Source: Reichenbachiella faecimaris (GTDB taxonomy: Bacteria > Bacteroidota > Bacteroidia > Cytophagales > Cyclobacteriaceae). Taken from it: DNA of 64,000 nt. Positions 43,816 to 64,000 of the stretch are shown here, piece by piece. Numbering within the stretch: the first letter of the stretch is position 1; each line of letters opens with the position of its first letter. Under the pieces are notes generated by a model. That model did no database searches and was not told the DNA's origin. It saw only the letters and a program-made list of their open reading frames with translations. The stretch is taken from assembly GCF_900176375.1 (NCBI RefSeq), contig NZ_FWYF01000001.1, positions 124,001-188,000 on the forward strand. The letters are read 5' to 3'. The position numbers and the translations under genes are program-made.

Positions 43816-45012
43816 ATGACAAAAAACAAACATGGGAAGGATCCTATTGTCCTTCCGTTCCTTACGTTGAGGAACATTTCGACTATTCAAGACCAAGAAA
43901 ACAATAGGAAAATTTACACTGGTCAAATTTCAGCTTTTTCAATTCTAGATCTTCCTTCTGATGAAAACGTCAGGGAATTCCTCCCTGAAGCGAGTCCCAA
44001 AAGGAGAAGCTATACTCAAGTTCATAGGGAAATATTAGAAACCCTAGAGAATAATGATGCTGATTTCAATGTGCTTAACTCAGGTATTACTGTAGTCGCC
44101 AAATCCCTGTCAATAGACGATAACAAAAAAGAGATGAAACTTGTGGGTTCATCGATTATTAATGGTTCACAAACTCAGGGTGTCATTAGAGATCATTACA
44201 ATAATCTTTCAGAAGATGCTCGTAATGAATTCAAAGGTATCGTCAAGTTTGAAATTATTGTAACAGGAGATCCTAATCTAATTGCTGAAACATCAATATC
44301 TAGAAACTATCAAAATGCGGTTAGACTATTAAGCATTGAAGGAAGAAGAGGGCAATTTGATGAATTACAAAATGCCTTAGACCCAGGAGGTCAAAGAGGA
44401 TTAAAACTTCAAAAAAGTGAAAGTGATCTATCTGAAGATATTATTCGAACAGAAAAGCTTCTTCAAATTCTAGTGACATTAATTCCCAAAGAGCTCTGGG
44501 AAAGAACCAAACCAAAGACTCATTATAATAAAGCGTATGCATATTCAATGAAGTCTAAATGTCTTAAAGAATTTGCTGATGCTTACGAAGCAGCAAAAAA
44601 TCCTGAAGATTCGAAACATGCTGAACTCAAAGAACTTTATCAGTTTTACTTGGACCTAGTTTTTGATGGATACAATTTGTATCAAAAATGGAAGCACCAT
44701 CAAGGATTCATTGGGAGAAATATTCGGAATGGCCTGAAATGGGAGGGAAGGTCAATAAAAGAAGTATCTGATGGATTTGTGTTTCCTATATTGGCTGCAT
44801 ACTCAAATTTCATTACGAAAGTAAATGACAGATGGACTCTGATGATTCCTTCTCACCTTGATGAAAATGATTTAATTGGGTTCATACATCAAGTTTATTC
44901 TGACTTATCGAGGGCAAACCCTCAGCATATGGGTAAGACAGAAAGTTCCTACGTTTTTATGGAAAGTATTACAAGAATGTACAGAAGAGCTATTCAAGCT
45001 GAAGGCTCGTAA
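43816..45012 (+). CDS. AIPR-family protein (abortive-infection phage-resistance type)
   Basis: 398 residues, cytoplasmic. The centre shows the AIPR pattern: 'NVLNSGITVVAKSL' (N88-T92), then 'LVGSSIINGSQTQGVIRDHY' (N116-G-S-Q-T120), 'VKFEIIVTGDPNLIAETSISRNYQNAV', and a helical C-terminal half. AIPR proteins were named from a lactococcal abortive-infection system, and the domain is also found with mobile elements and restriction systems; a biochemical activity is not firmly established. It is followed after 21 bases by the DUF6934-like gene and is bracketed by repeats next to a recombinase cluster. A phage-defence role is inferred from family and context. Confidence 0.75.
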   Translation: MTKNKHGKDPIVLPFLTLRNISTIQDQENNRKIYTGQISAFSILDLPSDENVREFLPEASPKRRSYTQVHREILETLENNDADFNVLNSGITVVAKSLSIDDNKKEMKLVGSSIINGSQTQGVIRDHYNNLSEDARNEFKGIVKFEIIVTGDPNLIAETSISRNYQNAVRLLSIEGRRGQFDELQNALDPGGQRGLKLQKSESDLSEDIIRTEKLLQILVTLIPKELWERTKPKTHYNKAYAYSMKSKCLKEFADAYEAAKNPEDSKHAELKELYQFYLDLVFDGYNLYQKWKHHQGFIGRNIRNGLKWEGRSIKEVSDGFVFPILAAYSNFITKVNDRWTLMIPSHLDENDLIGFIHQVYSDLSRANPQHMGKTESSYVFMESITRMYRRAIQAEGS

Positions 45013-45033
45013 ATACTTTTAATTGCATAAGGC

Positions 45034-45612
45034 GTGGCATTAAATATTAAAATAAATCTAGGTGATTGTTATGAGCTTGAAGATGTTTCAAACGACTTAT
45101 CTTCTTCGAAATTTGTAACAACTCTAAGTGACGATTCAGAGGTCGAAATAGGGGTATTAATTGGCAATACCTCTCACACTCTGTTGACTGAGGTATATAA
45201 CCTTGCTTTTGGTCCTGTTGATAAGAATAATGCAATTAATGATACGGCAAAACTGACTCATAAAGATCATTCAAAGACGTTTTCAACTATTGTATTAGCC
45301 TCATTGACTTTTTTATCTGCTAACCCCGATAAATATCTCGGTATTGATGGATCAAATAATGCTAGGGCTTATCTGTACTTCAGAATAATTCAAAATAACT
45401 ATGATCAATTATCTCAATATTTTGAAATATCTGGAGTGAATTACTACGTAAGAATCCTAAGAAAGACTAAAGATACGGACAGTAGCCATCCAGTTGATAG
45501 TAATGATATGGAAGCAATTCCTAGACCTATTCAAAAAGGAGAAAAAATTAGTAGCGATAAAATGTACAATTACTTTATTTTCAAACTTAAAGAAGGAGTT
45601 CAATTACCATAG
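45034..45612 (+). CDS. DUF6934-like hypothetical protein
   Basis: 192 residues. The start must be the GTG at 45034: an in-frame TAA lies one codon upstream (45028-45030), and the next in-frame ATG is far inside the domain. The segment 'EVYNLAFGPVDKNN...KDHSKTFSTIVLASLTFLSANPDKYLGIDGSNNARAYLYFRIIQNNYDQLSQYFEISG' has the layout I associate with DUF6934 ('NLAFGD', then 'KVLATVA.....F...YP...V...GS...RTRLY'). No activity is known for the family. It often occurs with a very small ORF directly downstream, as here, which would fit a toxin-antitoxin-like or regulatory pair. That is inference only. Confidence 0.65.
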   Translation: MALNIKINLGDCYELEDVSNDLSSSKFVTTLSDDSEVEIGVLIGNTSHTLLTEVYNLAFGPVDKNNAINDTAKLTHKDHSKTFSTIVLASLTFLSANPDKYLGIDGSNNARAYLYFRIIQNNYDQLSQYFEISGVNYYVRILRKTKDTDSSHPVDSNDMEAIPRPIQKGEKISSDKMYNYFIFKLKEGVQLP

Positions 45613-45943: not shown

Positions 45944-46281
45944 ATGCTATGAATTCTTATCCAGAGGTTAGGTGTTGTGTGTTGGGAGCGAACAGGTCCA
46001 CCAAATACGATATCAGGCAAGCAGTATAGCCATCTATTTTAGATTTATAGAACCTGATAAAGCAATACTGACTTAACATTATGTTAAGTATAATCTGTTT
46101 CGTCCAGGCGGGTCAGCAAGGCAAAATACCGAGGGTGCGGTGGGTCGTGTGTTGGGAGTGATTATTTTGTCTAGGGTTTTTGAATACTTTTGGGCCAATG
46201 CCAAAAGTATTTGCCTGCCCGGCATGAGGGCATACAGCGAACACAGATGAATGAAAACTGAACTGTGAGCTTTACAAATTC

Positions 46282-46337
46282 CGTCATAACTATACGATGA
46301 GATTCCTGATCTCCGTTGCACTTCGTCAGGAATGACG
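46282..46337. repeat. Intergenic palindromic repeat
   Basis: ATTCCTGA (46302-46309) pairs with TCAGGAAT (46326-46333), and an outer CGTCAT (46282-46287) pairs with ATGACG (46332-46337). The core sequence (TCCTGATCTCCGTTGCACTT) is of the kind scattered between genes in many bacterial genomes as short palindromic repeats. Translation of the reverse strand gives an artefactual open frame. Confidence 0.55.
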
Positions 46338-46736
46338 CAAAGGCTTGTGCTGTGAGCCAAACAGAGCGTTGGCCAGCAAGTGTATCGCAGGCAAAATCCT
46401 AATGCCTGAGAATAGCATATTTGAAAACGAACTGAACAATTACCCGAATAACGAAATTTTGATCGACAAGCTTTGCCTGAGATTCTCTTGCTCAGGGCTG
46501 GTCAGTGAGCCTTAGCTCACAAGCGGGTGGGAAAACTATTAATAGTCGTTTGGTCAGGGAACGGCCGAGCGATGGAATGTGCGCTGGCCGAGCGGCTATT
46601 TAATATAACGTCTAATTATATAACAACATCATAAGGAGCACTGAACCAGTGTACGTCCAGGAGCGTCAGCACGCAGAGATAATTTACCCGAGCGCCGTGG
46701 CGAGGGCAAGCGAAGAATGAGCGCAGACATAATATC

Positions 46737-46876
46737 ATTATATAACAATGATGGGTACTGGCATGAGCCGTGATTTGCTTTAACATAAAATCATTGCCGT
46801 TGATCGGACTCACATCCGATAACTGATTTTATGCTAAATGCTGCGCATACGCAAATCACTAGTAATGTTATATAAT
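46737..46876. repeat. 140 bp attC-like imperfect palindrome
   Basis: The ends are exact inverted copies, ATTATATAACA (46737-46747) and TGTTATATAAT (46866-46876). Inside, GTGATTTGC (46770-46778) pairs with GCAAATCAC (46851-46859). A 15-base arm (46779-46793) pairs with 46824-46838 with one mismatch, and ATCGG (46803-46807) pairs with CCGAT (46815-46819) across an 8-base loop. A 12-base bulge (46839-46850) lies only in the right arm. Nested imperfect arms with extrahelical bases and AAC/GTT at the ends are the architecture of integron attC sites (57-141 bp), although the end heptamers do not fit RYYYAAC/GTTRRRY exactly. Confidence 0.6.
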
Positions 46877-46890
46877 TTATATTATGTTAA
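46864..46890 (+). repeat. Right copy of the 13+9 bp direct repeat
   Basis: AATGTTATATAAT (46864-46876), a 5-base spacer and TTATGTTAA (46882-46890). The left copy lies at 43511-43540. This copy also forms the right end of the attC-like palindrome. Confidence 0.6.
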
Positions 46891-46960
46891 ATAAGGTCTA
46901 TACTTCAATTTGTTCATATTGTCTTGATATTGACTTTCAAAATATTATTAATCTATTATT

Positions 46961-46984
46961 GCTCATAAGTAAAGACTTATGAGC
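46961..46984. promoter_or_regulatory. Perfect inverted repeat across the start codon of the first recombinase
   Basis: GCTCATAAGT (46961-46970), spacer AAAG, ACTTATGAGC (46975-46984): ten paired bases with no mismatch. The recombinase ATG (46979-46981) is inside the right arm. It could be an operator for autoregulation, an mRNA hairpin hiding the start codon, or a recombinase core site with paired arms. Confidence 0.65.
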
Positions 46985-48130
46985 TACGTAAAAACAATTT
47001 CATTTCAAGAAAATTATAAACTACCTGTACTCTTTATCAACAGTACATCTAAACCTAGTTATTACTATTTCGAATATCTTCTCTTTAAACTAAGATATGC
47101 TCACCCTTTATCAACCTTAAGAGACAAAGCATATGCAGTCTCAAAATTTTATAACTATGCCCATCAAAATTTCAATCAAAACATTGATGCTTTAATTAAA
47201 AAAAACAGCTCTGACGAACTCGAAAAAATATTAAATGCTTATAAAATATATATTCTCAATACTCAATCAAAACAAGAATATTCAAATAAGTACAGATACG
47301 TTTTATTAAAAGCTCTTCGGGATTTCATAGAATATTATGTACAATCCAGATCACTTACGATTAACCTTCTACCCTACAATTCTATATTCTCTAAACTAAG
47401 GATTGAAACTTCAACAAAATTTAAAAAATCAAATCTGACAATTACGAAAGAATATCTTGAAATTGTCCTGCAAGTTGTATCTCCGGAAAGCGAATTAAAT
47501 CCATATCACCCAGATTTGGGTCTGAGATGGAGAAACTACATTATAATAAGAATTTTATATGAGACCGGAATACGTCTTGGAGAGCTAATGAGTTTAGATT
47601 TAAACTCATATTTTTCCTCCAATAAAAACTATTATTTGAGTATCGGATTAAGTGATAAAATTAACGACACCCGATTTTCGACTGGACTAATAAAAAATCC
47701 CCAAAGCGTTAGAAATGTAGCAATATCAGACGAACTGCATTCAATCATTCATCATTATGTAACTGTCATACGAAGAAAGGTTATTAATTTAAAAGAACAT
47801 AAGCAGCAGTTTTTAATAGTGTCAAATAGAGCGCGTTCAATATCAAAACATACGATATATCAAGTGCTGAACAAAGCTCAAGACAAAGCCAACATATTAA
47901 ATAATTCATCATATGATTTAAAACCACATGCATTTAGATATGCATTTGCAAATAGTTTTCTAAAATATCTTATTGAAATTGAACAATGTTCCCTCGAATT
48001 AGCAAAAGATAAACTCCGTTCTTCTATGGGCTGGGACAGCAAATCAACCATGCCAGACAAATATGCTGCAAATTACATTGCCCAGCTTGCTGATCAAGAT
48101 AACATCAAACGATTAAATTCAATTTATTAA
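46979..48130 (+). CDS. Tyrosine recombinase 1 of the trio (GinA/TnpA-like)
   Basis: 383 residues with a SAM-like N-domain (about 25-125) and a C-terminal catalytic domain. The catalytic residues are all visible: R199 in 'ETGIRLGELMSL', K239 in 'GLIKNPQS' as the likely beta-hairpin lysine, H317-A-F-R320 in 'LKPHAFRYAFANSFL', W352 in 'SMGWDSKS' and the nucleophile Y362 in 'MPDKYAANYI'. It should cut and rejoin DNA at specific sites. It is first of four tightly spaced genes (3 bp to the next), in the order and size range of Tn554 tnpABC and GInt ginABCD modules. It is A/T-rich compared with the left part of the window, suggesting transfer. Confidence 0.88.
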   Translation: MSYVKTISFQENYKLPVLFINSTSKPSYYYFEYLLFKLRYAHPLSTLRDKAYAVSKFYNYAHQNFNQNIDALIKKNSSDELEKILNAYKIYILNTQSKQEYSNKYRYVLLKALRDFIEYYVQSRSLTINLLPYNSIFSKLRIETSTKFKKSNLTITKEYLEIVLQVVSPESELNPYHPDLGLRWRNYIIIRILYETGIRLGELMSLDLNSYFSSNKNYYLSIGLSDKINDTRFSTGLIKNPQSVRNVAISDELHSIIHHYVTVIRRKVINLKEHKQQFLIVSNRARSISKHTIYQVLNKAQDKANILNNSSYDLKPHAFRYAFANSFLKYLIEIEQCSLELAKDKLRSSMGWDSKSTMPDKYAANYIAQLADQDNIKRLNSIY

Positions 48131-48133
48131 AGC

Positions 48134-49576
48134 ATGAACTACAAGTTTAATCGAATCGATACTATCAAGATTCAAAAAATAGGACAAGTTGGCAATGAAT
48201 ATTTTGAAATAGACTTAGCCAAAGACGTATGGCTCATTCGTCACTCAGGAATTCTCTACACAGTAGCGTGGAAAAAATTTTCAAAAGGACCAGAATTGGA
48301 GACTTATAAAGGTTTTATTGCTTCAAGATTAGAGACAAAGTCGCCATCAGTTATAACTAAAGACATGCGATTACTAAAATTTTTTAATAGTTGTCAAATG
48401 TCTTTTCTTGATATTCAGATAATTCCTGATCAACTAAAAGTAAGAATCAAAAATCTTTCATTAGACTATTACTCCTTTAAATCATATGTTCAATGGCTCA
48501 ATGAAAATACTTCTGTAAAAATTGAATCTAAATTAAACTTTGATATTATAGAATTACGCCCAAAATCAAGAAAGCCTTATCACAATTTGGAGTCGAAACA
48601 CTACGAGCTTTCCAAAAGAACGCAACATGATTTGATTAAACATTTTGAGAATAAACTAAACTACATTACCCGGTTCAATACGAAAAAAGTTCAAACTGGT
48701 CTTATGCTTATGATCTCCTATGAACTCGGATTACGTCCGATTCAAATACATGCGCTTAACATTGCTGACCTAACCATTCATACTCATAAAACTGAAAGGT
48801 TATGCTCTCTAAATATATTAAGTGTAAAAAAAAGATCAGAAAAGGAATACAAAAAAACAAAAAGAGCTATATCCATTAAATTGGGGAATAAGATAGCAGA
48901 GTATATATCTGCGAACAAGCTTGATCATTTAGACCCAATGTTCTTCTCTCCTCGTAATTTAGTGAGGTATTCATCTACCAAAATCTGCAAACTCATATCT
49001 GCAGAATTTCAAGAAATTGGTATCAATACTAAGGATTATTTCGGAAATACAATATTGAGACATAATTTGGCTCAATCACTTGCAAATCAAGGCAGCCCTT
49101 CCGAAATAATAGCATCAATATTGGGTCATAACTCTACTACAGCATCAAATGCTTATGTAAAAGCTGTACCAACAATTTCAAAAATCAAAACACAAGCTCT
49201 TGGGAAAAGCAAAAGGTTTACAGAAATAATTGATATGCTGATGACTGGAGAGCCAAAAAAAGAAGATGAAGTGAAAAAGGACCGCTGGGTTCATGGAGTA
49301 GTCGGCAATGGCTATATAGGTGGAATAGGTGGATGTGGATTACCTTCCAATAATCAATGTCCCAAAAATCCAATTTACTCCTGTTATACCTGTCAAAAAT
49401 TTCATCCCTTCAAAGATGGTCCTCATCAGGAAGTGCTAGATAAATTACAAGCAGAGGTACAGCTATTTATTGAACAAGCCACATCATCTGGAGATATACA
49501 ATTCAATCGCTCTATTGACCAACTTGAGTTAACAATAGAATCTGTTGTTCGAACTATTGAAAGGTTCAATAAATGA
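48134..49576 (+). CDS. Tyrosine recombinase 2 of the trio, with C-terminal Cys cluster
   Basis: 480 residues. The phage-integrase fold covers about 165-350: R201 in 'YELGLRPIQIHAL', the box II segment 'NTILRHNLAQSLANQG' with R309-H310 retained but Thr306 where the first His of HxxR normally stands, then G331-H332 in 'ILGHNSTTASNAYV' and nucleophile Y341. After the catalytic domain come four cysteines (C401, C409, C417, C420; 'CGLPSNNQCP...SCYTC') that could bind zinc, as in TnpB-like recombinases of Tn554-type elements. It overlaps the next gene by ATGA. The His-to-Thr change may alter or reduce catalysis. Confidence 0.85.
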   Translation: MNYKFNRIDTIKIQKIGQVGNEYFEIDLAKDVWLIRHSGILYTVAWKKFSKGPELETYKGFIASRLETKSPSVITKDMRLLKFFNSCQMSFLDIQIIPDQLKVRIKNLSLDYYSFKSYVQWLNENTSVKIESKLNFDIIELRPKSRKPYHNLESKHYELSKRTQHDLIKHFENKLNYITRFNTKKVQTGLMLMISYELGLRPIQIHALNIADLTIHTHKTERLCSLNILSVKKRSEKEYKKTKRAISIKLGNKIAEYISANKLDHLDPMFFSPRNLVRYSSTKICKLISAEFQEIGINTKDYFGNTILRHNLAQSLANQGSPSEIIASILGHNSTTASNAYVKAVPTISKIKTQALGKSKRFTEIIDMLMTGEPKKEDEVKKDRWVHGVVGNGYIGGIGGCGLPSNNQCPKNPIYSCYTCQKFHPFKDGPHQEVLDKLQAEVQLFIEQATSSGDIQFNRSIDQLELTIESVVRTIERFNK

Positions 49577-51663
49577 GAGAGCTATCAAAATTTATTGATG
49601 AACAAAAAAAGTATTTCAAGGAATCTGTACCTACAATTGTTTGGGATGATGATCGATGGGATGTTTCCCATTGGATACCAAATCGTGGGGTGGATCGCTA
49701 TATCATTTTTCAACCTATTAAATCTAAATTAATTAAGAGTAGAAATATATGTAAAATCATTCCTCTTGAATTTTCTGAATTTATGAAGGCATTAGCAGTT
49801 TATATGCATAGATCAAGAAAAACAGGATTTATGTCAGTCCGTAACTATGTCAATGAATTACGACGAATGTATTCTTTGGTCTTATTTATTAGGGGTGAAT
49901 CTGCCCCTTCCCTACTTTCTAATTGGCATTTTGAACAACTTCTTAGAACTCGAAAAGAAGAGAATTATAAAAATATTTATAATTCAGCTGCAAATATTAA
50001 ACTCATAGCCGATCTAATTGACAGGTTGAATATTTGTGAAACAAAAATAAATTTTCAACATGGATTAAAAAGTAAACACCACCATAACTCATTAAAATCG
50101 AACATTGTCAGCAATGACAATGAAAGAGATATTGATAAACTGCCCAGTTTAGAATTCTTTCAAGCATATGCCTATTGTACCAATAATCCTATTAATGAAA
50201 ATGAAGAAATACTTTTACGTACCATCGATTTATTAATAGCTCTTGGACAGAGAGGAAATGAGGTAACAGTTATACCATATGATTGCATTATAGAAAAATA
50301 TAATTACACTGATTCAGGCGAAATAATAAATGATGGTCATGGTAAACCTATTATGACGTATGGTTTAAAATACTTTAGCGAAAAAAACTTTGAACCTAAA
50401 ATACATTATTTATCAGATATTGATTGGCCTTTTGCAAAAAGAGCAATTGACAGACTCAAGATTTTAACTAAAGAAGCTCGGAATGTGGCATTGTTTCAGG
50501 AAGGAAATCCAGATAGAATTTGGGAGATCAAGCCAGATTCAATAATTAGCGACACCGAAATATCGAAATATTTACAGTTTAAGACTTTTTTAAACTTACA
50601 TACTTACTTGAGACGAAAAGGAGTTTATAAAGTTAGCTCTGATGCCGATCATGATCGTAATGAGAAATTCAGTTCCAATAGATTCTATAATTATAGATAC
50701 TATTATCGTGCTGGTGACATTGAAAATGTATTGAAAAATGATTTACCAGATCATTTTGATTTCCGTTCCAAATTTGATTCAAAAGTTGAAACTGTACTAA
50801 AAACATCGGAAATCCTTAGTATTAGATTTAATGGAGCATTTCAGTTCAAAATAAGGGGATCACATTTGAAAAAAATATTTCCCCATAGAACAACATTACC
50901 TGAAATAAATGGTGCTCTAGGCTCAAAGAGTGTTTATCAAACAATTTTTGAAAGACGTAACCTCACAGAAAAGGATGGGACTAGACTAGGAGCAACTTCT
51001 CACTCCTTTCGGCACTGGCGAAATACCATATATCAACTAACTGGTATGTCAGACGTTCAACAAGCTTTGGCATTGGGACGAAATGACATTTCCCAAAACA
51101 AATATTATCAACATGAAACATTAAAAGAAAAAACGGAAAATCACAGAAATTTTTTACGTTTTAATAACAATCAGGAAAAAATCACTTATCTTCAAAAAGG
51201 GATAAAAAATGGAACCATAAAAGGTTCAATAACCAATCTTTATGAAAAGATTAGAAAAGAGCAATCCGCAAGAGATGCTGATGAATTTCTAACCATACAT
51301 GCCAATTCACTGCACATTACTCCATTTGGAGGTTGTACACATGATTTTAGTCAAAACCCTTGTTTGAAACATCTTCAGTGCTGGAATGGTTGTTCGCATC
51401 TTCATAGAACTGGTACTGAGAATGAAACAAGAAGACTGACAGAATTGCTAGGTAGTCTAGAAAAACTCAAAGAAAAACAAGCCAAAGAATTACAAGAAGG
51501 ATCGGTCTGGACATCAGATTTGAATTCTAAGATTAGTAACTTAAGGAAAGTGTTGGATAATGATACAATTGATAATAGTAAAAAGCCATATCAAGTATTT
51601 CCAGATAGCCAATACATGCAAAATATAGGAAAAGATAAGACAAGTTCAACAACAGATGACTAA
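49573..51663 (+). CDS. Tyrosine recombinase 3 of the trio (large), with C-terminal Cys cluster
   Basis: 696 residues, the largest of the three. A long N-terminal region (1-190) precedes the catalytic domain, in which R227 ('ALGQRGNEVTVIP') and R480 are about 250 residues apart because of an insertion. Box II is intact: H477-S-F-R480-H481 ('TSHSFRHWRNT'). Box III has R503 where His or Trp is usual ('LALGRNDISQNKYYQH'), and the nucleophile is Y511 or Y512. A cysteine cluster follows (C588, C597, C603, C607; 'GGCTHDFSQNPCLKHLQCWNGCSH'). Overlap of eight bases with the next gene shows coupled translation. The match is to the large partner recombinase of GInt/Tn554-like modules. Confidence 0.85.
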   Translation: MRELSKFIDEQKKYFKESVPTIVWDDDRWDVSHWIPNRGVDRYIIFQPIKSKLIKSRNICKIIPLEFSEFMKALAVYMHRSRKTGFMSVRNYVNELRRMYSLVLFIRGESAPSLLSNWHFEQLLRTRKEENYKNIYNSAANIKLIADLIDRLNICETKINFQHGLKSKHHHNSLKSNIVSNDNERDIDKLPSLEFFQAYAYCTNNPINENEEILLRTIDLLIALGQRGNEVTVIPYDCIIEKYNYTDSGEIINDGHGKPIMTYGLKYFSEKNFEPKIHYLSDIDWPFAKRAIDRLKILTKEARNVALFQEGNPDRIWEIKPDSIISDTEISKYLQFKTFLNLHTYLRRKGVYKVSSDADHDRNEKFSSNRFYNYRYYYRAGDIENVLKNDLPDHFDFRSKFDSKVETVLKTSEILSIRFNGAFQFKIRGSHLKKIFPHRTTLPEINGALGSKSVYQTIFERRNLTEKDGTRLGATSHSFRHWRNTIYQLTGMSDVQQALALGRNDISQNKYYQHETLKEKTENHRNFLRFNNNQEKITYLQKGIKNGTIKGSITNLYEKIRKEQSARDADEFLTIHANSLHITPFGGCTHDFSQNPCLKHLQCWNGCSHLHRTGTENETRRLTELLGSLEKLKEKQAKELQEGSVWTSDLNSKISNLRKVLDNDTIDNSKKPYQVFPDSQYMQNIGKDKTSSTTDD

Positions 51664-52054
51664 GGTTAGTAAATTAAGGGGACAAAAGTTAACTGACGAA
51701 ATAGAGCGAATATGCCAGGAGTATATAAGTAAGGACCCTCGGGTAGCAAGGATTACTAGATCCCTAATTCAAAGAAAACTTGGTCAATCCAGCCGATCTA
51801 CGTTAGTAGGAGAAAGAGGTAAACTTATAGATCATTATGCAGATCAGCAACGCAGAAATTTTAACATCACCAAAACAGGAATTAGGAAAAAAACAGATGA
51901 TGAAAAGTTAGTTAAACTCAGAATTGAAAATGAACAATTAAAAAGAGAAAGAGACCAAGCTGTTGCTGACTATGCATCAATAATGAATGGTTTAAAAATG
52001 AAAGGCATTAATTTGGAAGATGTCCTCTACCCTATTTTTAATCCACACGAATAA
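51656..52054 (+). CDS. Small coiled-coil accessory protein of the recombinase module (DUF6262/TnpC-like)
   Basis: 132 residues. The N-terminal half is helical with an HTH-like segment ('DPRVARITRSLIQRKLGQSSRSTLVGERGKLIDHY'), followed by a basic linker and a C-terminal coiled coil ('DDEKLVKLRIENEQLKRERDQAVADYASIMNGLK'). This is the profile of TnpC of Tn554 and of the fourth gene (ginD) in GInt modules, thought to be a DNA-binding helper that sets orientation or efficiency of recombination. It overlaps the third recombinase by eight bases, so all four proteins are made together. Confidence 0.8.
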   Translation: MTKVSKLRGQKLTDEIERICQEYISKDPRVARITRSLIQRKLGQSSRSTLVGERGKLIDHYADQQRRNFNITKTGIRKKTDDEKLVKLRIENEQLKRERDQAVADYASIMNGLKMKGINLEDVLYPIFNPHE

Positions 52055-52092
52055 TTTTATTCACTATCATTAGATAGAACAAAAATGTTTAG

Positions 52093-52296
52093 CTAGCCGA
52101 ATATACCATACTCAATTCTACCCAATGCATTATATACCTCCAATCTACCCATACCACTATCTAGCAGTTCAACTGGCTTTTTGTTTGCAAGATTTCTACA
52201 AGGCAACGTTAGCCATTCGATAAAATATTCTCTGTCTTCGAACACATCCTCACCAAACTGGTATATGAGTTCAAAGGTAATCTCTTTCGTTTTCAT
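52093..52296 (-). CDS. Orphan MbcA/ParS/Xre-type toxin-binding domain protein
   Basis: 67 residues. From about residue 17, 'DVFEDREYFIEWLTLPCRNLANKKPVELLDSGMGRLEVYNALGRIEYGIFG' follows the C-terminal toxin-binding domain of MbcA/ParS/Xre antitoxins closely ('vFgd...a..WL.tPn..L.g..P.elLdt..G...v...L.rieyGv'). The DNA-binding HTH that normally precedes it is absent. Known members neutralise RES-domain NAD-degrading toxins or related ADP-ribosyltransferases; no RES gene is in view. It follows the metallophosphoesterase by 37 bases on the same strand. Confidence 0.75.
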   Translation of the reverse strand: MKTKEITFELIYQFGEDVFEDREYFIEWLTLPCRNLANKKPVELLDSGMGRLEVYNALGRIEYGIFG

Positions 52297-52333
52297 ATGT
52301 CAAGGCAATAATTTATTAGCACTCACTCCGATA

Positions 52334-53098
52334 TTACAATTCAACACATTTTTTATACTCAAAATCCGTGTGCTCCATTTGAAAACTGTAGCCGAATTGG
52401 TTAGATATAAACTTCACCCCAAGTATATCTACATCTTTATTCCAATGATTATGGCCATAGATCCAGTAGTCGATATCCCAGTCTCGGATTCGGTTTTCTA
52501 GATCCGCTACGAAGTACCGGTTGATAATAGGTCCTAAATAATTGTCATTACTTTTTGGATAGCCATTCGCTTGCTGACATGGAACAAAATGGGAAACCAC
52601 AACTCTAGGGCGTTTCTTATCGAGACTCAGTACTTTGTTGAGCCAGGTAACTGCTTTCCCATGAAGGTTATCATGCTGAGTGTATTTAAATGGACCATCT
52701 GCGTATTTGCACTGTCTGAAATCAGCAATGTGTGATTTGATTAAAGAGGTGTTGACTCTTGACCAAAGTGTGGTGAATATTAAATCTACTCCTTCAATGG
52801 TAACCACCTGATGATTCAAATATCGAACATTCGTGTAGATGGTGAGTTCTAGGTTAAATGAAGCTGCAACATTTCCTTTTTTATAAAACTCGTGATTTCC
52901 TGGAATAATATATACTTCCTGCCAATGGTCGGATAAGTATTGAAAAAACTCGGGTCGAGTGACTTGACCACCTGAAATGATATCTATGTCACCTGCCAGA
53001 ATCAGATACGGAGCTACAGGCTTTATCTTATTCCGCATAAGAAAGTGATAGTTTTCGTCAAATTCGACATGGAGATCAGATGCGTATTGAAATCTCAT
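52334..53098 (-). CDS. Calcineurin-like metallophosphoesterase
   Basis: 254 residues from the ATG at 53098, chosen because 'MRFQYASDLHVEF' is the usual family start and it lies one base after the upstream stop; the frame stays open 105 bases further but inside the upstream gene. All metal-binding blocks are present: 'SDLHVEF' (DxH), 'LAGDIDI' (GD), 'IIPGNHEFY' (GNHE), 'VVSHFVP' (SH) and 'YGHNHWN' (GHxH). It should hydrolyse phosphate esters or cyclic nucleotides in the cytoplasm with two metal ions. It is the third gene in an operon of RHH-like, small hypothetical and phosphoesterase genes. Substrate unknown; nucleic acid or a signalling nucleotide are possibilities. Confidence 0.88.
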   Translation of the reverse strand: MRFQYASDLHVEFDENYHFLMRNKIKPVAPYLILAGDIDIISGGQVTRPEFFQYLSDHWQEVYIIPGNHEFYKKGNVAASFNLELTIYTNVRYLNHQVVTIEGVDLIFTTLWSRVNTSLIKSHIADFRQCKYADGPFKYTQHDNLHGKAVTWLNKVLSLDKKRPRVVVSHFVPCQQANGYPKSNDNYLGPIINRYFVADLENRIRDWDIDYWIYGHNHWNKDVDILGVKFISNQFGYSFQMEHTDFEYKKCVEL

Positions 53099-53099
53099 A

Positions 53100-53366
53100 T
53101 TAGGGCGTTTCTTCTTTCTTTTTATTTGGCTTTTCGCATTTGTCATTATTTGACTTATCTGAGTTCTTTTTTCTATCAGAGAATTGAACATAAAAAGGTT
53201 CAAAGTACCTTAATCTTCCATCTTCAAGTTCTACGAGTACATGAGTCTCACTGTGGTAATTTGCCAGCTTGTAAACGAAACGATGAAAGAATCCCTTTAT
53301 GCTTTTTCCTTTGTCGTTTACAAGAACTGGTCTTAGCTCATTTTTGCCAGTCATAACTAAATTCAA
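53100..53366 (-). CDS. Small hypothetical protein of the phosphoesterase operon
   Basis: 88 residues. A small beta-rich domain ('KNELRPVLVNDKGKSIKGFFHRFVYKLANYHSETHVLVELEDGRLRYFEPFYVQFSD') is followed by a charged Lys/Asn tail. Its ATG overlaps the stop of the upstream RHH-like gene (ATGA), and its stop is one base before the phosphoesterase start, so the three are translationally coupled. I do not recognise a family; the barrel-like pattern may bind RNA, DNA or a partner. Confidence 0.65.
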   Translation of the reverse strand: MNLVMTGKNELRPVLVNDKGKSIKGFFHRFVYKLANYHSETHVLVELEDGRLRYFEPFYVQFSDRKKNSDKSNNDKCEKPNKKKEETP

Positions 53367-53578
53367 TCTCGAAATTGGTTCATAATATCTCTATTGATAT
53401 CGGATTGATATTGTCTTTTCCAGTGAGCTAAAATATTATATGTTAAATCAGCTAAGGCTATATTATAGTGATTGGCAGTTCTTTTGAGAAATAAATGTAA
53501 GTCTTCATCCAAATTTACCGTCCTATACTTACTACTCTTTGGCTCAGTTCTCGCCTTAACAAACTGTTCTAATTCCAT
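53363..53578 (-). CDS. Small ribbon-helix-helix-like protein
   Basis: 71 residues from the ATG at 53578; an upstream ATG at 53611 is possible. 'SKYRTVNLDEDLHLFLKRTANHYNIALADLTYNILAHWKRQY' has a strand followed by two helices, the pattern of Arc/MetJ/ParG-type DNA-binding proteins. It is the first gene of the minus-strand phosphoesterase operon and lies across from the Xre regulator, with the 24 bp palindrome between them. It may be a second regulator of the locus. The call is by pattern only. Confidence 0.6.
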   Translation of the reverse strand: MELEQFVKARTEPKSSKYRTVNLDEDLHLFLKRTANHYNIALADLTYNILAHWKRQYQSDINRDIMNQFRD

Positions 53579-53630
53579 AATCAAATTATTCTGCTTAAAA
53601 ATGGCGGTCAAGATATAAAAACTAAATTAC

Positions 53631-53654
53631 ATCCACAGACTATAGTCTGTGGAT
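53631..53654. promoter_or_regulatory. Perfect 24 bp palindrome, C-box-like operator
   Basis: ATCCACAGACTA (53631-53642) is followed immediately by its exact reverse complement (53643-53654), with no mismatch. The core GACTATAGTC is close to the GACT..AGTC half-site pairs bound by restriction-modification controller (C) proteins. It sits between the divergent RHH-like gene (start 53578) and the Xre gene (start 53690), 35 bases before the latter. A likely binding site for the Xre dimer; a promoter-like 'CTACTTTG' follows at 53672-53679. Confidence 0.75.
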
Positions 53655-53689
53655 AGCAGTCTTCGCATAATCTACTTTGGTCTCCATAA

Positions 53690-53920
53690 ATGGAGGACAA
53701 ACAGATCATAGCGGCGTATAGTAAGACTTTAAAAAAGCTGCGTATTGAGAAATCAATATCGCAAGAGAAGCTTGCATTTAAAGCTGGCCTACATCCTACT
53801 TATATCTCTCTTTTAGAAACAGGCAAAAGACAACCTTCCCTGTCTGTGATTTTTAGAATAGCCAAAGAATTAGGCTATCTACCAAATGAATTTGTAAAGA
53901 AAATTGAGGAAGCTGCTTGA
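53690..53920 (+). CDS. Small Xre-family HTH regulator, C-protein-like
   Basis: 76 residues, a single HTH_3 domain: 'AYSKTLKKLRIEKSISQEKLAFKAGLHPTYISLLETGKRQPSLSVIFRIAKELGY'. The recognition helix is near 'HPTYISLLETGKR'. Size and sequence type match controller proteins of restriction-modification systems and similar stand-alone Xre repressors that act as dimers. A 14-base inverted repeat (CTCCAT-AA-ATGGAG, 53682-53695) spans its start codon, and the 24 bp palindrome is just upstream, so autoregulation is likely. No methylase or endonuclease gene is in the window. Confidence 0.85.
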   Translation: MEDKQIIAAYSKTLKKLRIEKSISQEKLAFKAGLHPTYISLLETGKRQPSLSVIFRIAKELGYLPNEFVKKIEEAA

Positions 53921-53976
53921 CTAGATTTAACTAATTTTCAATTAGCTCCATTCAATCAAAAAACGTCTATTCCATT

Positions 53977-56472
53977 TCATCTAAGCCTAAGACTGTTTCC
54001 AATAACTGAAACCGAACTCAAACTCATTGCCAAAGCGGCAAGCATTGGACTAAGTAGAAGGCCAAAAAATGGAAATAAAATTCCTGCAGCTACCGGCACT
54101 CCCAGCGTATTGTAGACAAAAGCAAAAAACAGATTTTGCTTAATGTTACGCATGACATCTGTACTAAGCTTACGTGCCCGGACGATCCCATCAAGTTCCC
54201 CTTTTACTAGTGTAAGACTTGCGCTTTCAATGGCTACATCTGTACCTGTTCCCATGGCAATGCCAACATTGGCTTGGGCTAAGGCTGGAGCATCATTGAT
54301 ACCATCTCCTGCCATGGCTACTATTTTTCCCTCTCTCTGAAGTTCCTTTACCTTTTCATATTTATGTTCTGGTAGAAGATCAGCCTCGTAGCCATCTAGA
54401 CCCAATTTGTTAGCTACTGCTTGCGCAGTATTCTTGTTATCTCCGGTTAACATTATTACCTCTAAACCTTGGTCCTGAAGTGTTTTTATGGCTAAACCAG
54501 ATGCTTCTTTGATGGAATCGGCTACACTAATAAACCCAACGATAGATTTTGAAATAACAACAAACATTACGGTTTCACCTTCTAGCTGTCGTTTCTCTAC
54601 TTCTTCATTAAATTTGGTTTCTAACCGCAGGTTGAATTCTTCTAACAATTTACTGTTACCTATAGCCACATTCAATTCAGCAACCTTTCCCGTTACTCCT
54701 TTGCCGGTAATCGAGTTAAAATCATCAACACGCTGAATTTTAAATCCTTTTTTTTCTGCGCCCAAAACAATTGCATGAGCTAGCGGGTGTTCGCTGTTAT
54801 GTTCCAAAGAAGCAGCCAATGTAAGAATCTCTTGCGTGGTATACTTATCGTTTAAAGACTCAACATGCTGCAGTGTTGGTTTGCCTTGAGTAATAGTCCC
54901 AGTTTTATCAATGACCAACGTTGTTACTTTATGCATTTCCTCTATGGCGCTAGCATTCTTTACTAAGATTCCTTGTTTGGCACCTTTACCGGTTCCTACC
55001 ATAATGGACATTGGAGTTGCTAATCCTAATGCACATGGACATGCTATGATCAAAACAGTTACTGCACTGGTAAAAGCATAGACCAGTGCTGGGTCAGGAC
55101 CCCAAACAGCCCAAACAATAAATGAAAGAATGGCAATGCCAACTACAACTGGAACGAAGTAACCCGAGACTTTATCTGCCAAATTTTGGATTGGTGCTTT
55201 AGTTCGGCTGGCCTTGTTAACCATATCGATGATTTGCGCTAGCAATGTGTCACTTCCTACCTTAAGTGCCTTCATTTGAAATACACTGGTACCATTGATC
55301 GTGCCACCAATGACATTAGCTCCTTCAGACTTCTCAACCGGAATGGGCTCTCCTGTAATCATAGATTCATCAATACTGCTCTTTCCTTCAGTAATTTCTC
55401 CATCAACGGGTATCTTCTCTCCAGGCTTAATTTTAATAATGTCATGCAATTTAACATGCTCCATAGGAATGATCATTTCGACACCATCTCTGATTACAGT
55501 TGCTTCAGGCGGTACCAGGTTGAGTAATTCCTTGATAGCTGAGTTCGTTTGACTCCTTGCTTTCGCTTCTAGTAATTGTCCCAAGAGAATCAGCGTTAGA
55601 ATAACGACTGCTGCCTCAAAATATAAGTGCACAACTCCTCCTTCAGTTTTGAACTGATCAGGGAAAATTTCAGGGAATATCAAAGCAAAAATGCTAAAAA
55701 GGTACGCTGCTCCAGCTCCAAGGGTGATTAATGTCCACATATTTGGAGAACGATTGACAATAGACTTGTACCCTCTAATAAAGAAATTCCGACAAGAGTA
55801 AAAAATGACAGGAGTACTCAAGGCAAATTGTACCCAACCCCATGTTTCTTCGTTCCTGATTCCTGAAAGTGTTACACCAATCATATCACTCATGGCAATG
55901 AAAAATACCGGAAGCGTAAAAGCAACTGAAGTCCAGAATTTGGCAAGCATGTTCTTATATGCTTTCTGCTCCTCTGCACCGTCTTCACTTGACACCTCTT
56001 TGGGTTCTAAGTCCATTCCACATTTGGGACAAGAACCAGGATGGTCCTGTTCAATCTCGGGATGCATTGGACAAGTATAGATGGTCCCGGAACTTGACGA
56101 TGCTTCTTCTTTCACTAAATCCATACCGCACTTAGGGCAATCGCCAGGCTTATCGTACTTTTTATCCCCTTCACAAAGCATTGGACAATAGTATTTTCCA
56201 GTGCTATCCATATCCTTTTGTTTGATTTCAGGCATGGGGTGATGGGTCTGGGTATGTGTTCCTTGAGGATGAATATCGTATCGGCCACCGTCATCTTTAA
56301 GTGCTTGTTTCAAAAGCTCAATTGGTATATGTTTATCCATTTTGACCATCGCCTCTCCCTTGCCTAAATCAATCGAGACTTCTGTGATTCCTGGAACTTG
56401 GCCCAAAATTTTTTCAACATGGCCTCTGCATCCTTCACAGGTCATTCCAGTAATTTGATAGGTATGTTTCAT
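53977..56472 (-). CDS. copA: Copper-exporting P1B-type ATPase
   Basis: 831 residues. An N-terminal HMA domain binds Cu(I) through C12/C15 ('MTCEGCRGH'), followed by two heavy-metal-binding modules (about 95-120, 'YYCPMLCEG...[10 protein letters not shown]', and 132-156, 'YTCPMHPEI...[10 protein letters not shown]'). The ATPase core has TGEP (373-376), the transmembrane CPC motif (C478, C480; '[12 protein letters not shown]'), the phosphorylated D522 in 'DKTGT', His-Pro at 562-563 ('SEHPLAHA') and '[11 protein letters not shown]' near the end. It moves Cu(I) or Ag(I) from cytoplasm to periplasm using ATP. Last gene of the copper operon, so its product feeds the CusABC pump. Two extra HMBD modules make it longer than typical CopA. 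Confidence 0.95.
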
Positions 56473-56530
56473 ATTTGTACTTTGAATATTTGAATTTATA
56501 TTTTCCTACTTCATAGCCTAAAAATTAATT

Positions 56531-56791
56531 CTAGTGTTTATGGTTTTCATGATCTGAATTACTAGTTCTATCAGATTCTTTTAGTGCCATCCCACATTTC
56601 GAGCATTTGTCTCCCTGTTTACCTACTATTTCCGGATGCATTGGACAGGCATAGACCTTGCTCTCTGATGATTCTTCCATCATGTTTTCATGATTAGCTT
56701 CATTCCTTTTTTGGCTACATCCTGTCAGATATAAGCTACTAGCCCATAGAATAAGTATCGAAGCTGTTAATGTTAAAATTGACTTTTTCAT
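56531..56791 (-). CDS. Metal-binding lipoprotein with HMBD module
   Basis: 86 residues: a lipoprotein signal ('LTASILILWASSLYLTGC', Cys about 25), a short polar linker, one heavy-metal-binding module ('VYACPMHPEIVGKQGDKCSKCGMAL', four Cys plus Met/His) and a His/Asn-rich tail ending 'HENHKH'. It probably binds periplasmic copper or silver and hands it to the efflux pump. It lies 10 bases after the 43-residue peptide gene and 58 bases before copA, on the same strand. Confidence 0.82.
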   Translation of the reverse strand: MKKSILTLTASILILWASSLYLTGCSQKRNEANHENMMEESSESKVYACPMHPEIVGKQGDKCSKCGMALKESDRTSNSDHENHKH

Positions 56792-56801
56792 TTTATGAAT
56801 T

Positions 56802-56933
56802 TTAATAGTTAAACATTTGAATTGTGGCTATAGTAATCACCAGGAGGATCACAATCCCCCAGATGATTCGAGTAGCCCATATTTTTAGTTTGGATTGAGG
56901 TTTTACATCCCCTTTCTTACAACACTCTTTCAT
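56802..56933 (-). CDS. 43-residue Cys-Cys membrane peptide of the copper operon
   Basis: The ATG at 56933 overlaps the stop of the CusB-like gene (ATGA). The product is 'MKECCKKGDVKPQSK', a single transmembrane helix ('IWGIVILLVITIATIQMF') and two residues. The open frame reaches further upstream, but that part lies inside the CusB-like gene in another frame. The adjacent cysteines at positions 4 and 5 before the helix would suit metal binding or sensing on the cytoplasmic side. No name known to me; coupling and position indicate a real gene. Confidence 0.7.
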   Translation of the reverse strand: MKECCKKGDVKPQSKLKIWATRIIWGIVILLVITIATIQMFNY

Positions 56934-58714
56934 TTTATAGTTTCTGTTATTTCTCCACAAGTGGGCATGTCCGCTCCGAAATAGGGGTTTTGGATTTCGT
57001 CTGAAAGACTGAGCCAATCTGCTCCTTTATTATTATCTACCATTGGACAGTGCTGGACATAAATATCCTTCTCTAATGGAACAAAGGATTTTGCTAGGCC
57101 GATCATGGAGTTGGACAATAGCTGAAAAGCTTTTCTCATTTCCCCTAAGTTCTGAAAATGCGCTGCATGTTGCATTGCCTCTTTTGCCTCACTACTGTAG
57201 TCCATCCATATCTGATGCGACTGGCCAGTAAAAACTGACATATTTATCTTGCCTAAGCCGTCCTGAAACAAGGTTGTTGCCTTTTTCGCACCTTCCAAAT
57301 CGTCATTGACCAATGCGTCTTTGATTTTTAAATAATCCATCAACAAGGGCTTCAAAGCTTCCTTGGCTTTGGTGTTAACATTTACCTTTTTATTTTGTTC
57401 TTGAATCGAAGGCTTTGAAGCTATCGTTGTTGATCCTCCATGATTGTGGCCTGTCATCACAGGCCCTCCTTCAGGACTCATCATACTCGGTTTTCCTGCT
57501 AATTGTGCTGCAGCATCGATGCTGAAGGTGCCATTGACAGCAATTTCTTCTCCCTGCTCTAAGCCTTCTTCAATGATGTAGCTGGTTCCTAAAGTCGACC
57601 CTAATTTCACCTCTCTCATCAAAAAGCTTATGCCGTTGCCCGTTGTTTCCTTGACATAGACCACTGATCTTTTGCCCGTCCACATTACTGCCGTTTTAGG
57701 AATGATCACAGCATCAGAGCTACCAGAAGATAGTTGCGCTTCCAAAGTACCGGAGACAAACATCTCAGGTTTTAGTCTTAAGCCTTTATTGTTAACCTCC
57801 AGCCTTGCTTTGGCTACCCTTGTTCTAGGATTAATTACAGGATCTATGTAGGTTATTTGACCTTCAAATTCCTCTCCTGGTAATGAGGCGATTGTAAAGG
57901 TCACCAGATCCCCTTTTTTTGCCCAAGCCATATCGCTTTCGTAGATATCAAATAGCACCCAAACCTTGGAAAGGTTGGCTATTTCATAAATGGACTGTCC
58001 CTTGTTGATGTAATCCCCAAGGTTCACTTTCTTTTGTGTTACATATCCAGAAATGTCCGCATTGATGGGAAACTCATCTATCGGTTTTCCACTGCTAATG
58101 ATGTCGTCAATCTGTCTATCGGTCAGCTTCCAATTTTTAAGTTTTCCTCTGGCGGCCTGATACAACGCTGGTTGACTATCCTTGATCTTTACTGCTTCAA
58201 AGAGTTCTTCCTGAGCTGTGACCAAATCGGGGGAATAGATATAGGCAATGGGTCGGCCTTTGCGCACATATTCACCAGTGAAATTAACATTAAGTTTTTC
58301 AATTCTTCCCTGAATATGAGAAGACTGAGAGTAGACTAGCCTTTCATCTTCCTGTACCTTACCATTTAACCTAAGGGATTTGATGGGTCTCATTTTCCCT
58401 ACTACTTCAGTAGATATATTGGCCAATTGCATGGCCGTTGGAGACATGCTTACGGCCATAGCATTTACTTCCCCCTGATCTTGATCGACAGGAACTAAAT
58501 CCATTCCACAAATCGGGCAAGAACCTGGTTCATCGCTCCTTATTTGTGGGTGCATTGAACATGTCCAGGTAGTTTCACTAGCTATCCCTGTAGCATGATT
58601 GTGTTCTTCCTTTGTGCCATTCTCTGAACCTCCAAAGAATAGCCAACCTAGCAATAAACCTCCTACTAAAGTGGCGAGTGCTACGGTAATTAGTGTTTTT
58701 ATTGAGATGTTCAT
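56930..58714 (-). CDS. cusB: CusB-type periplasmic adaptor with HMBD and DUF3347 domains
   Basis: 594 residues. An N-terminal membrane anchor (8-28) precedes a heavy-metal-binding module (C52, C66, C69; 'WTCSMHPQI...SCPICGMDLVP'). The adaptor core follows with lipoyl/barrel-sandwich, hairpin and beta-barrel domains ('RIEKLNVNFTGEYVRKGRPIAYIYSPDL', 'ADISGYVTQKKVNLGDYINKGQSIYEIANLSKVWVLFDIYESDMAWAKKGD'). The C-terminal 150 residues are a DUF3347 domain ('LLMDYLKIKDALVNDDLEGAKKA...FVPLEKDIYVQHCPMVDNNKGADWLS'), often linked to copper. It joins CusA and CusC across the periplasm and delivers Cu(I)/Ag(I). One base after cusC. Confidence 0.92.
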   Translation of the reverse strand: MNISIKTLITVALATLVGGLLLGWLFFGGSENGTKEEHNHATGIASETTWTCSMHPQIRSDEPGSCPICGMDLVPVDQDQGEVNAMAVSMSPTAMQLANISTEVVGKMRPIKSLRLNGKVQEDERLVYSQSSHIQGRIEKLNVNFTGEYVRKGRPIAYIYSPDLVTAQEELFEAVKIKDSQPALYQAARGKLKNWKLTDRQIDDIISSGKPIDEFPINADISGYVTQKKVNLGDYINKGQSIYEIANLSKVWVLFDIYESDMAWAKKGDLVTFTIASLPGEEFEGQITYIDPVINPRTRVAKARLEVNNKGLRLKPEMFVSGTLEAQLSSGSSDAVIIPKTAVMWTGKRSVVYVKETTGNGISFLMREVKLGSTLGTSYIIEEGLEQGEEIAVNGTFSIDAAAQLAGKPSMMSPEGGPVMTGHNHGGSTTIASKPSIQEQNKKVNVNTKAKEALKPLLMDYLKIKDALVNDDLEGAKKATTLFQDGLGKINMSVFTGQSHQIWMDYSSEAKEAMQHAAHFQNLGEMRKAFQLLSNSMIGLAKSFVPLEKDIYVQHCPMVDNNKGADWLSLSDEIQNPYFGADMPTCGEITETIK

Positions 58715-58715
58715 C

Positions 58716-63748: not shown

Positions 63749-63850
63749 AATATGAATGATTAGAATTGAACATAAAGAATTTGTTCAAAAAGGCGAATAG
63801 CCTTTTGACCCGACAGAAATGCCAGGTTTAAGAAATCATATTATGCGGTC
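63749..63850. other. Short gap before cusA
   Basis: It contains the terminator-like hairpin listed separately and an A/T-rich stretch before the cusA ATG. A promoter for cusA may be here, or transcription may continue from the partial upstream gene past the hairpin. I see no clear -33/-7 pair. Confidence 0.3.
63786..63806 (-). terminator. Terminator-like hairpin between the partial small gene and cusA
   Basis: AAAAGGC and GCCTTTT form a 7 bp stem with a 5-base loop. On the minus strand it is followed by T residues, the orientation expected for a terminator or attenuator downstream of the partial gene ending at 63851. Confidence 0.55.
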
Positions 63851-64000
63851 TTATATGCGGAATACCTGATGCAGAACAGAAATGTCCTGATCGATCAGAG
63901 GGGGTGAATAGTTTGCGTATTGAACCTCTTCATTGATTGAGGAGATAGGTAAGTGAAGAAATGTGATTATAAATGCAGCTACAAACTCAACATTAACACT
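63851..64000 (-). CDS. C-terminal end of a small protein upstream of cusA (partial)
   Basis: A minus-strand frame enters from the right edge and runs 49 codons to a TAA at 63851-63853. It reads 'VNVEFVAAFIITFLHLPIS' and ends 'YSPPLIDQDISVLHQVFRI'. This resembles the ends of short hypothetical exported proteins often found just before cusA in Bacteroidetes metal-resistance operons. Too little is visible for a family call. The frame being open to the window edge and the adjacent hairpin support a real gene. Confidence 0.45.
   Translation of the reverse strand, partial: SVNVEFVAAFIITFLHLPISSINEEVQYANYSPPLIDQDISVLHQVFRI

Follow-up and report, generated by a model that had tools for sequence, protein, structure and literature searches.

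A GInt-type island with its own recombinases beside the chromosomal dif site of Reichenbachiella faecimaris

Introduction

Why do three unlike tyrosine recombinases and a small coiled-coil protein share one operon in Reichenbachiella faecimaris, and into which site might they insert DNA? The operon lies in a stretch of 64,000 nucleotides (the window; positions 124,001 to 188,000 of contig NZ_FWYF01000001.1, forward strand), for which an initial annotation from sequence alone had proposed a GInt/Tn554-like integration module. GInts are defined by ginABCD at one end, 2.5–70 kb of cargo after ginD and a short AT-rich 3′ end (Bardaji et al., 2017, PMC5385486; here and below we draw on parts of this paper and of Idola et al., 2023, PMC10214605). 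Our verdict is that the element is a GInt with a new class of target, the chromosomal dif site, at which bacteria resolve joined sister chromosomes at the replication terminus. The element adjoins dif, and its inverted arms surround a 6-bp site that reads GTTAAA in dif; an unbroken dif stands on the side of ginA and no complete one at the opposite end. We put at about 85% the probability that the element integrated at dif through a Gin heteromer that recognizes the XerD half of the site and exchanges strands across GTTAAA, sparing dif. Neither the position beside dif nor the extent of the island, which runs past the window to about 82.77 kb in its frame, was part of the initial annotation. Contig coordinates are prefixed C7, window position 46865 being C7:170865.

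An intact dif site precedes the gin operon

The left end of the island and the operon comprise the following features.

46865–46892, plus strand: dif, intact, left of the island (XerC arm 46865–46875, center 46876–46881, XerD arm 46882–46892)
46886–46891, plus strand: attL, the outer half of the XerD arm (GTTAAA), predicted as the crossover site of 6 bp and placed from the arm spacing in other elements and the empty site of G002, another genome of the genus
46892–46917, plus strand: left terminal arm (20 bp, then GTTCAT), with its inverted partner at C7:206740–206763 (82740–82763 in the window frame)
46979–48130, plus strand: ginA, 383 aa, tyrosine recombinase with canonical R-K-H-R-W-Y
48134–49576, plus strand: ginB, 480 aa, tyrosine recombinase with T306 at the HxxR His and a C-terminal four-Cys cluster
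49573–51663, plus strand: ginC, 696 aa, tyrosine-recombinase fold with R-K-H-R-R-Y (box III Arg503) and a C-terminal Cys cluster
51656–52054, plus strand: ginD, 132 aa, small coiled-coil protein

The three recombinases and the coiled-coil protein are thus encoded as initially annotated, all on the plus strand of 46979–52054. A gap of 3 bp separates ginA from ginB, ginB and ginC overlap by 4 bp and ginC and ginD by 8 bp, which makes translational coupling of the genes plausible.

The dif site, 86 bp from the start of ginA, fits the published dif pattern (E. coli dif is GGTGCGCATAATGTATATTATGTTAAAT). A 20-bp core pattern with up to two mismatches has a single match in each of the eight genomes of the genus, R. 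faecimaris included. The site in the window is the same as that of G006 across all 28 bases and shares at least 27 with those of G002 and G003. Over C7:1–380000, positive GC skew prevails up to 170 kb and negative skew beyond it, with the sign changing at dif; the cumulative skew peaks in the bin ending at 170000, and dif is at 170865. The same dif sequence stands 5′ of ginA in relatives of the operon from Bacteroidota, Pseudomonas and Deefgea. Twelve genomes of relatives have one dif without mismatches each, adjoining ginA in 11 and on another contig in the genome of locus L013. The AT-rich genomes have additional sites with two mismatches, at about the control level.

Mapping the ends of the island

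In G002, DNA collinear with C7:206.8 kb onward over about 11 kb begins some 0.1 kb after dif. G005 has the same arrangement, collinear over about 17 kb with one jump. Because collinearity in these two genomes resumes after dif, about 35.9 kb separates the dif site of R. faecimaris from its former neighbor. Homology to the right flank was found in five of the seven other genomes of the genus (in G001, G003 and G007 over the first genes). Comparison with relatives, the route that the initial annotation had proposed for mapping the island, together with the end structures fixes it at C7:170892–206763, or 35,872 bp from one 6-bp site to the other, with the right end beyond the window at 82763 of its frame. 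The final 300 bp are 72% AT, the island mean being 62.6%. An early attR candidate at C7:201723 (a 13-bp direct repeat) was dropped when synteny and the inverted-arm search put the end at C7:206764.

The right end consists of ATGAAC, 18 bp and a 6-mer, which in this island is CTAGCA (attR, C7:206764–206769). The sequence CTGCCC lies 17 bp from the 6-mer both at this attR and at GTTAAA in the empty site of G002. Eight further elements from Bacteroidota, Pseudomonas and Deefgea have the same end geometry. The motif ATG[AG]AC-18-GT[TA]AA[AG] occurs exactly once, on one strand only, in each of these eight element regions (40–80 kb); at 34 other spacings it has a mean of 0.00–0.06 occurrences. The elements measure about 14.5 kb in a Chitinophagaceae metagenome-assembled genome (MAG), 17.8 kb in Chryseobacterium, 18.5 kb in P. 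wayambapalatensis and 25.4, 26.3 and 27.5 kb in three Pseudomonas. The Maribacter element (about 30.7 kb) has GTAAAA at both ends, its right end being placed from the right-arm motif alone, and the Deefgea element (about 35.3 kb) has GTTAAG on the left and GTAAAG on the right. In these elements GTTAAA or a near variant stands at both ends, whereas the island of the window has GTTAAA and CTAGCA.

The end geometry and the equal 17-bp spacing to CTGCCC indicate that strand exchange most likely spans GTTAAA, which makes up the outer half of that arm of dif bound to XerD. Since the inverted arms surround the GTTAAA of dif, the left end keeps the whole of dif. The foreign 6-mer at the right end matches the polarity predicted from strand-biased circularizing integrative elements (SE), in which attL keeps the 6 bp of the target and attR carries a foreign 6 bp (Idola et al., 2023, PMC10214605); alternatively, it may reflect later drift. 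The right end of the first element in P. wayambapalatensis is immediately followed by a second left arm, which would fit the arrival of a newer element at dif next to an older element; a search there detected no further gin operon.

Could the host recombinases have inserted the island instead? Integrative mobile elements exploiting Xer (IMEX) such as CTXphi, GGI and LME-1 are described as using dif with host Xer, and the target here is indeed dif. Under this explanation, XerCD would have integrated the island through a dif-like attP, and the gin genes would serve something else. XerCD work at the two edges of the dif center, which would leave both ends with sites sharing that center. However, the 6 bp shared here form the outer XerD arm. 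Neither an XerC arm nor a dif center nor a complete second dif is present at the right end, so that the dif-like sites expected of IMEX at both ends are absent and a single dif is present. Furthermore, the same ends accompany gin operons in different phyla, and ssb rather than dif is the neighbor of related operons. Integration by host Xer is therefore very improbable, and we retain integration at dif by the Gin proteins.

Catalytic residues of the Gin proteins

The window GinA has a canonical set of catalytic residues (R199, K239, H317, R320, W352 and Y362). The corresponding positions are R201, K232, T306, R309, H332 and Y341 in GinB, where threonine replaces the HxxR histidine, and R227, K271, H477, R480, R503 and Y512 in GinC, where arginine occupies the box III position. 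The initial annotation had described these substitutions, and profile alignments agree with its placement. An hmmsearch alignment puts T306 of GinB in the column of the XerD histidine, and hhalign pairs T306, H332 and Y341 of the GinB profile with H477, R503 and Y512 of GinC. The assignment of catalytic columns thus has support beyond the multiple alignment. Arginine at box III is unusual, and an active site without the HxxR histidine would resemble that of type IB topoisomerases.

Homologues with canonical residues would, in the words of the initial annotation, mark the substitutions as local decay. We looked for them among 74 GinA, 74 GinB and 82 GinC proteins (best reading frame of each kind per locus; minimum 370, 440 and 600 aa, respectively; one duplicate sequence in each set). 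GinA has R, K, H and R in 74/74 and the box III tryptophan and the tyrosine in 73/74 each, the exception (L057) ending early. In GinB, the lysine, second arginine and box III histidine are present in all 74, the tyrosine in 73 and the first arginine in 66, with asparagine in the other eight. The HxxR histidine position of GinB holds T (23), M (16), R (15), K (10), I (5), S (3), Y (1) or V (1) and never histidine (0/74). All six GinC positions, including the box III arginine, are the same in 82/82 proteins, and none has His or Trp at box III. Because the genome scan for GinC used the pattern H[QSI][FP]RH[WYN][RLI]NT, conservation of the HxxR H and R in this set is by design; the other four positions were free. 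Nine loci found without the pattern, by BLAST or HMMER (four repeating earlier ones, L210–L213, and five new, L208, L209 and L216–L218), gave R-K-H-R-R-Y in 9/9 GinC of at least 575 aa, no histidine in GinB (0/9), and the box III tryptophan of GinA in eight, with histidine in one (L217). The box III arginine is likewise present in two GinC remnants, of which one repeats L031. In the Pseudomonas remnants L030, L031 (= L215) and L214, part of ginA runs straight into the C-terminal portion of ginC and then ginD, with ginB not detected.

Were the gin genes a decayed remnant, their unusual residues would reflect neutral loss. In favor of this, a first look, which may miss distant relatives, found no ginC in 145 related genomes (including the seven other genomes of the genus) or in 394 other sampled genomes of the phylum. 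Yet the same residue pattern recurs in 74 GinB and 82 GinC at identities to the window protein as low as 16% (GinB, 38 aligned) and 20% (GinC, 40 aligned), the reading frames are intact, the genes overlap and the island ends are paired. The survey leads us to reject local decay, and a decayed remnant is hardly credible as an account of the operon; judged from the sequences, the unusual GinB and GinC residues are a family-wide property. The C-terminal four-Cys clusters noted initially recur as well. C401, C409, C417 and C420 of GinB are invariant in 38 sequences, and C588, C597 and C603 of GinC are invariant in 40, the fourth cysteine moving by one residue between lineages.

GinA and GinB are recognized by the Pfam family Phage_integrase (48.5 and 41.7 bits; cut-off 27.1), and GinC is not. 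Profile comparison gave no reliable match between GinA and GinC and, for GinC against sequences in the PDB, no recombinase at E values up to 1. The fold of GinC rests on an AlphaFold model and its structural matches because these two profile comparisons gave none. This model (mean predicted local distance difference test, pLDDT, 77.2) matches the Tn1549 integrase (VIA Z 13.5, root mean square deviation, rmsd, 3.9, 276 aligned) and, with Foldseek, an integron integrase (E 5.8e-5). The GinB model (mean pLDDT 83.6) matches XerH (VIA Z 17.7, rmsd 3.9, 285 aligned) and Cre (Z 16.7, rmsd 4.0, 281 aligned). Both models agree with tyrosine recombinases. The initial comparison of the fourth protein with DUF6262 fared poorly. 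The window GinD has no Pfam match, 5 of 30 family members reach E ≤ 0.1 against DUF6262 (best 0.003), and generic coiled-coil models score as well.

Does GinC catalyze at all? In the parts of the two papers on which we draw, GinC is said to be without the first arginine (Bardaji et al., 2017, PMC5385486) or without the RHRY motif and the catalytic tyrosine (Idola et al., 2023, PMC10214605), and to be a purely structural protein with a tyrosine-recombinase fold. The unusual box III arginine would fit such a role, as would, for GinB, the asparagine at the first arginine in 8/74 proteins. Against it, the R, K, H, R and Y of GinC are complete in 82/82 proteins (the HxxR H and R by design of the scan) and in the 9/9 found without the pattern, and GinB keeps its tyrosine in 73/74. 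A purely structural GinC (or GinB) is for these reasons the less favored option, doubtful although deserving real weight. The printed claims of missing GinC residues do not fit the sequences analyzed and appear to call for correction; this set includes the ssb-adjacent relatives L004, L071 and L076 and does not knowingly include the reference GInt of P. stutzeri DSM 4166. The consulted portions of the GInt literature (PMC5385486, PMC10214605) make no mention of the missing HxxR histidine of GinB.

Distribution of dif-associated gin operons

The genome scan for GinC returned 198 stretches with the motif, of which 170 were confirmed and the best 80 kept. Among 87 tabulated loci, the window included, 62 have full-length ginA, ginB, ginC and ginD in this order, which is more than chance would give; in the remaining 25 the operon is cut off at a contig end, broken or rearranged, or some member (such as ginD) was not detected. 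Among 298 Pseudomonas genomes, 10 carry ginC, two as remnants, and among 369 of the class 4 do, in both cases with the search center included, and a contig scan gave five carriers in Bacteroidota. A scan of viral contigs found no relative with GinC alone and two with the GinC alignment. Plasmids contributed 155 records of GinC-like proteins, all below 60% identity (best 42.7% over 91%, P. aeruginosa plasmids); those listed are mostly annotated as hypothetical proteins.

We searched for dif, allowing two mismatches, in the interval reaching from 400 bp upstream of the ginA start to 250 bp downstream of it; six of the tabulated loci have no usable ginA for this test. The subfamily of the window has dif at ginA in 23 of 28 loci, with 0 (17 loci), 1 (5) or 2 (1) mismatches. 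A Moraxellaceae-type sister group has it in three of four testable loci (L066, L068 and L086; 0–1 mismatch), and in the fourth (L078) dif and a left arm lie 2.7 kb upstream; L003 was untestable. L087, whose GinC is too short for the tree, has dif without mismatches. By contrast, none of the 48 remaining testable loci has dif at ginA (best, five mismatches). In a GinC tree of 81 rows, built with a quick method that warned of long branches, the subfamily (26 rows, three without dif at ginA) lies on one side of a branch with a Shimodaira–Hasegawa-like approximate likelihood ratio test (SH-aLRT) value of 99, and the subfamily plus sister group (5 rows) on one with a value of 100. The ssb gene directly precedes ginA in L004, L071 and L076, which are in another part of the tree (ssb in L071 and L076 was recognized by eye from the translation). 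The tree groups the dif-associated elements, and the rest includes ssb-inserted GInts.

Locus L002 is a gin operon on a P. aeruginosa plasmid (1663–8202) whose site keeps the XerD half with a different center. Its ginC is split by IS30, and only the larger piece is in the alignment. This piece is near-identical to the chromosomal GinC of P. wayambapalatensis, which suggests recent exchange between plasmid and chromosome.

Comparison with known elements

The island resembles GInts in its four-gene operon, in order at the left end and encoding three tyrosine recombinases plus a small GinD, in having its cargo after ginD and a length (35.9 kb) within the 2.5–70 kb range, and in its AT-rich right end (72% versus 62.6%). 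It differs in its target, which is dif rather than the ssb or ABC transporter genes of published GInts, and in belonging to a different clade than the ssb-adjacent loci. Bardaji et al. (2017, PMC5385486) use neither 'dif' nor 'terminus' in their main text. The GInt part of the initial label stands on gene content, order and family relationship; 'Tn554-like' applies only through the printed analogy of GinD to TnpC and the 6-bp footprint. As described in the literature, Tn554 shares this footprint and has a TnpC-like small protein, but it has two recombinases (TnpA and TnpB) plus TnpC against the three recombinase genes here.

SE likewise have four genes, a 6-bp footprint and inverted terminal repeats. 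They are set apart by description, with the gene order intA, tfp, intB, srap, and neither blastn nor blastp is reported to detect likeness between their genes and those of GInts (Idola et al., 2023, PMC10214605). Recombinase-in-trio (RIT) elements have three tyrosine recombinase genes in a row, but these encode 315–410 aa with no fourth protein listed (PMC10214605, Table 1), in contrast to 383, 480 and 696 aa plus GinD. IMEX share insertion at dif with one dif site kept; they rely on host Xer and a second dif-like site, unlike an island with its own recombinases and a single dif.

A model for insertion beside dif

GinA, GinB, GinC and GinD may form a heteromeric recombinase that recognizes the XerD half of dif and exchanges strands across GTTAAA. 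We take the Gin proteins as the agents because all four gin genes are essential in Pseudomonas GInts (Bardaji et al., 2017, PMC5385486). Insertion beside dif would leave chromosome dimer resolution working and would not provide host XerCD with a second dif through which to excise the island. With less certainty, GinA could carry out canonical cleavage and joining, and GinB could work with a site devoid of the HxxR histidine. We propose GinC as an active or phosphate-engaging partner rather than a dead scaffold because all its catalytic positions but box III are as usual. Unequal active sites might then lead to strand-biased exchange like that of SE. The division of labor within a heteromer that was initially suggested is a hypothesis resting on the family-wide residue pattern.

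Several observations weigh against integration at dif by the Gin proteins. The attR of the window is CTAGCA instead of GTTAAA, and the 6-bp site comes with hardly any longer direct repeat, whereas published GInts are flanked by direct imperfect repeats of 10–17 nt (PMC5385486). The right-flank match is absent in G004 and G006, and left-flank homology within 1.5 kb was found in only one of the seven other genomes of the genus. Empty sites sought in Chryseobacterium and Pseudomonas lent no support: in Chryseobacterium, dif stands beside the right-flank gene in 0 of 19 relatives and is 9.7 kb apart in the nearest, and the right flank of Pseudomonas sp. NKUCC02_KPG, compared with 59 genomes, had a match in its own alone. 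Five of the 28 subfamily loci have no dif at ginA: it is on another contig in L013, the left end is cut in L022, L024 is at a contig start, and L030 and L031 are remnants. Lastly, excision, integration and the choice of acting tyrosine are predictions from sequence for the element of the window.

Cargo and flanking genes

Synteny and the ends delimit the cargo, whose part in the window was annotated with Pfam.

52055–64000: cargo within the window
52334–53203, minus strand: metallophosphoesterase
53977–56472, minus strand: P-type metal ATPase
56930–58714, minus strand: CusB-like protein
58716–59951, minus strand: outer membrane efflux protein
59948–63748, minus strand: resistance-nodulation-division (RND) pump

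Together, window 53977–63748 and C7:189816–195434 encode two sets of RND efflux proteins, each kind with CusB- and OEP-like components, in addition to the P-type ATPase for heavy metals. The cargo is likely to confer copper or silver resistance. A serine resolvase with a helix-turn-helix is encoded on the minus strand at C7:205909–206508 (81909–82508 in the window frame), about 0.25 kb inside the right island end.

To the left of dif and outside the island, window 43816–45612 encodes an AIPR/AbiU-like protein, possibly a defense gene, and a DUF6934 protein. The roughly 0.9 kb left of dif (45960–46870) contains imperfect palindromes and no long open reading frames. A GC-rich unit in this region (GGCAAGCGA...) resembles a unit left of dif in the Chitinophagaceae MAG (L008), and parts of the region are 69–70% alike in G007.

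Implications for the biology of dif

No paper containing both 'GInts' and 'dif' as whole words was found among open full texts, supplements and subscription papers being outside this search; 'ginABCD' occurs in four papers. By titles and abstract openings, the literature on dif with islands or integrative elements concerns mainly Xer, dif and IMEX, with no title on GInts at dif. More broadly, and somewhat short of even odds, we tentatively propose a clade of GInts specialized for dif across Bacteroidota and Pseudomonadota. Such elements would use an obligate heteromer with three unlike nucleophile-bearing sites and a strand-biased exchange that rebuilds dif; dif would offer a harmless site for landing and stacking at the terminus, and its conservation would permit the crossing of phyla.

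The dif site is a highly constrained part of the chromosome, and the elements described there in the part of the literature covered here (CTXphi, GGI and LME-1) borrow host Xer. If the proposal is true, islands that bring their own recombinases and restore dif would represent a second, independent way of living at this site. The residue survey also opens to direct test how a reaction made for four protomers is divided among three recombinases.

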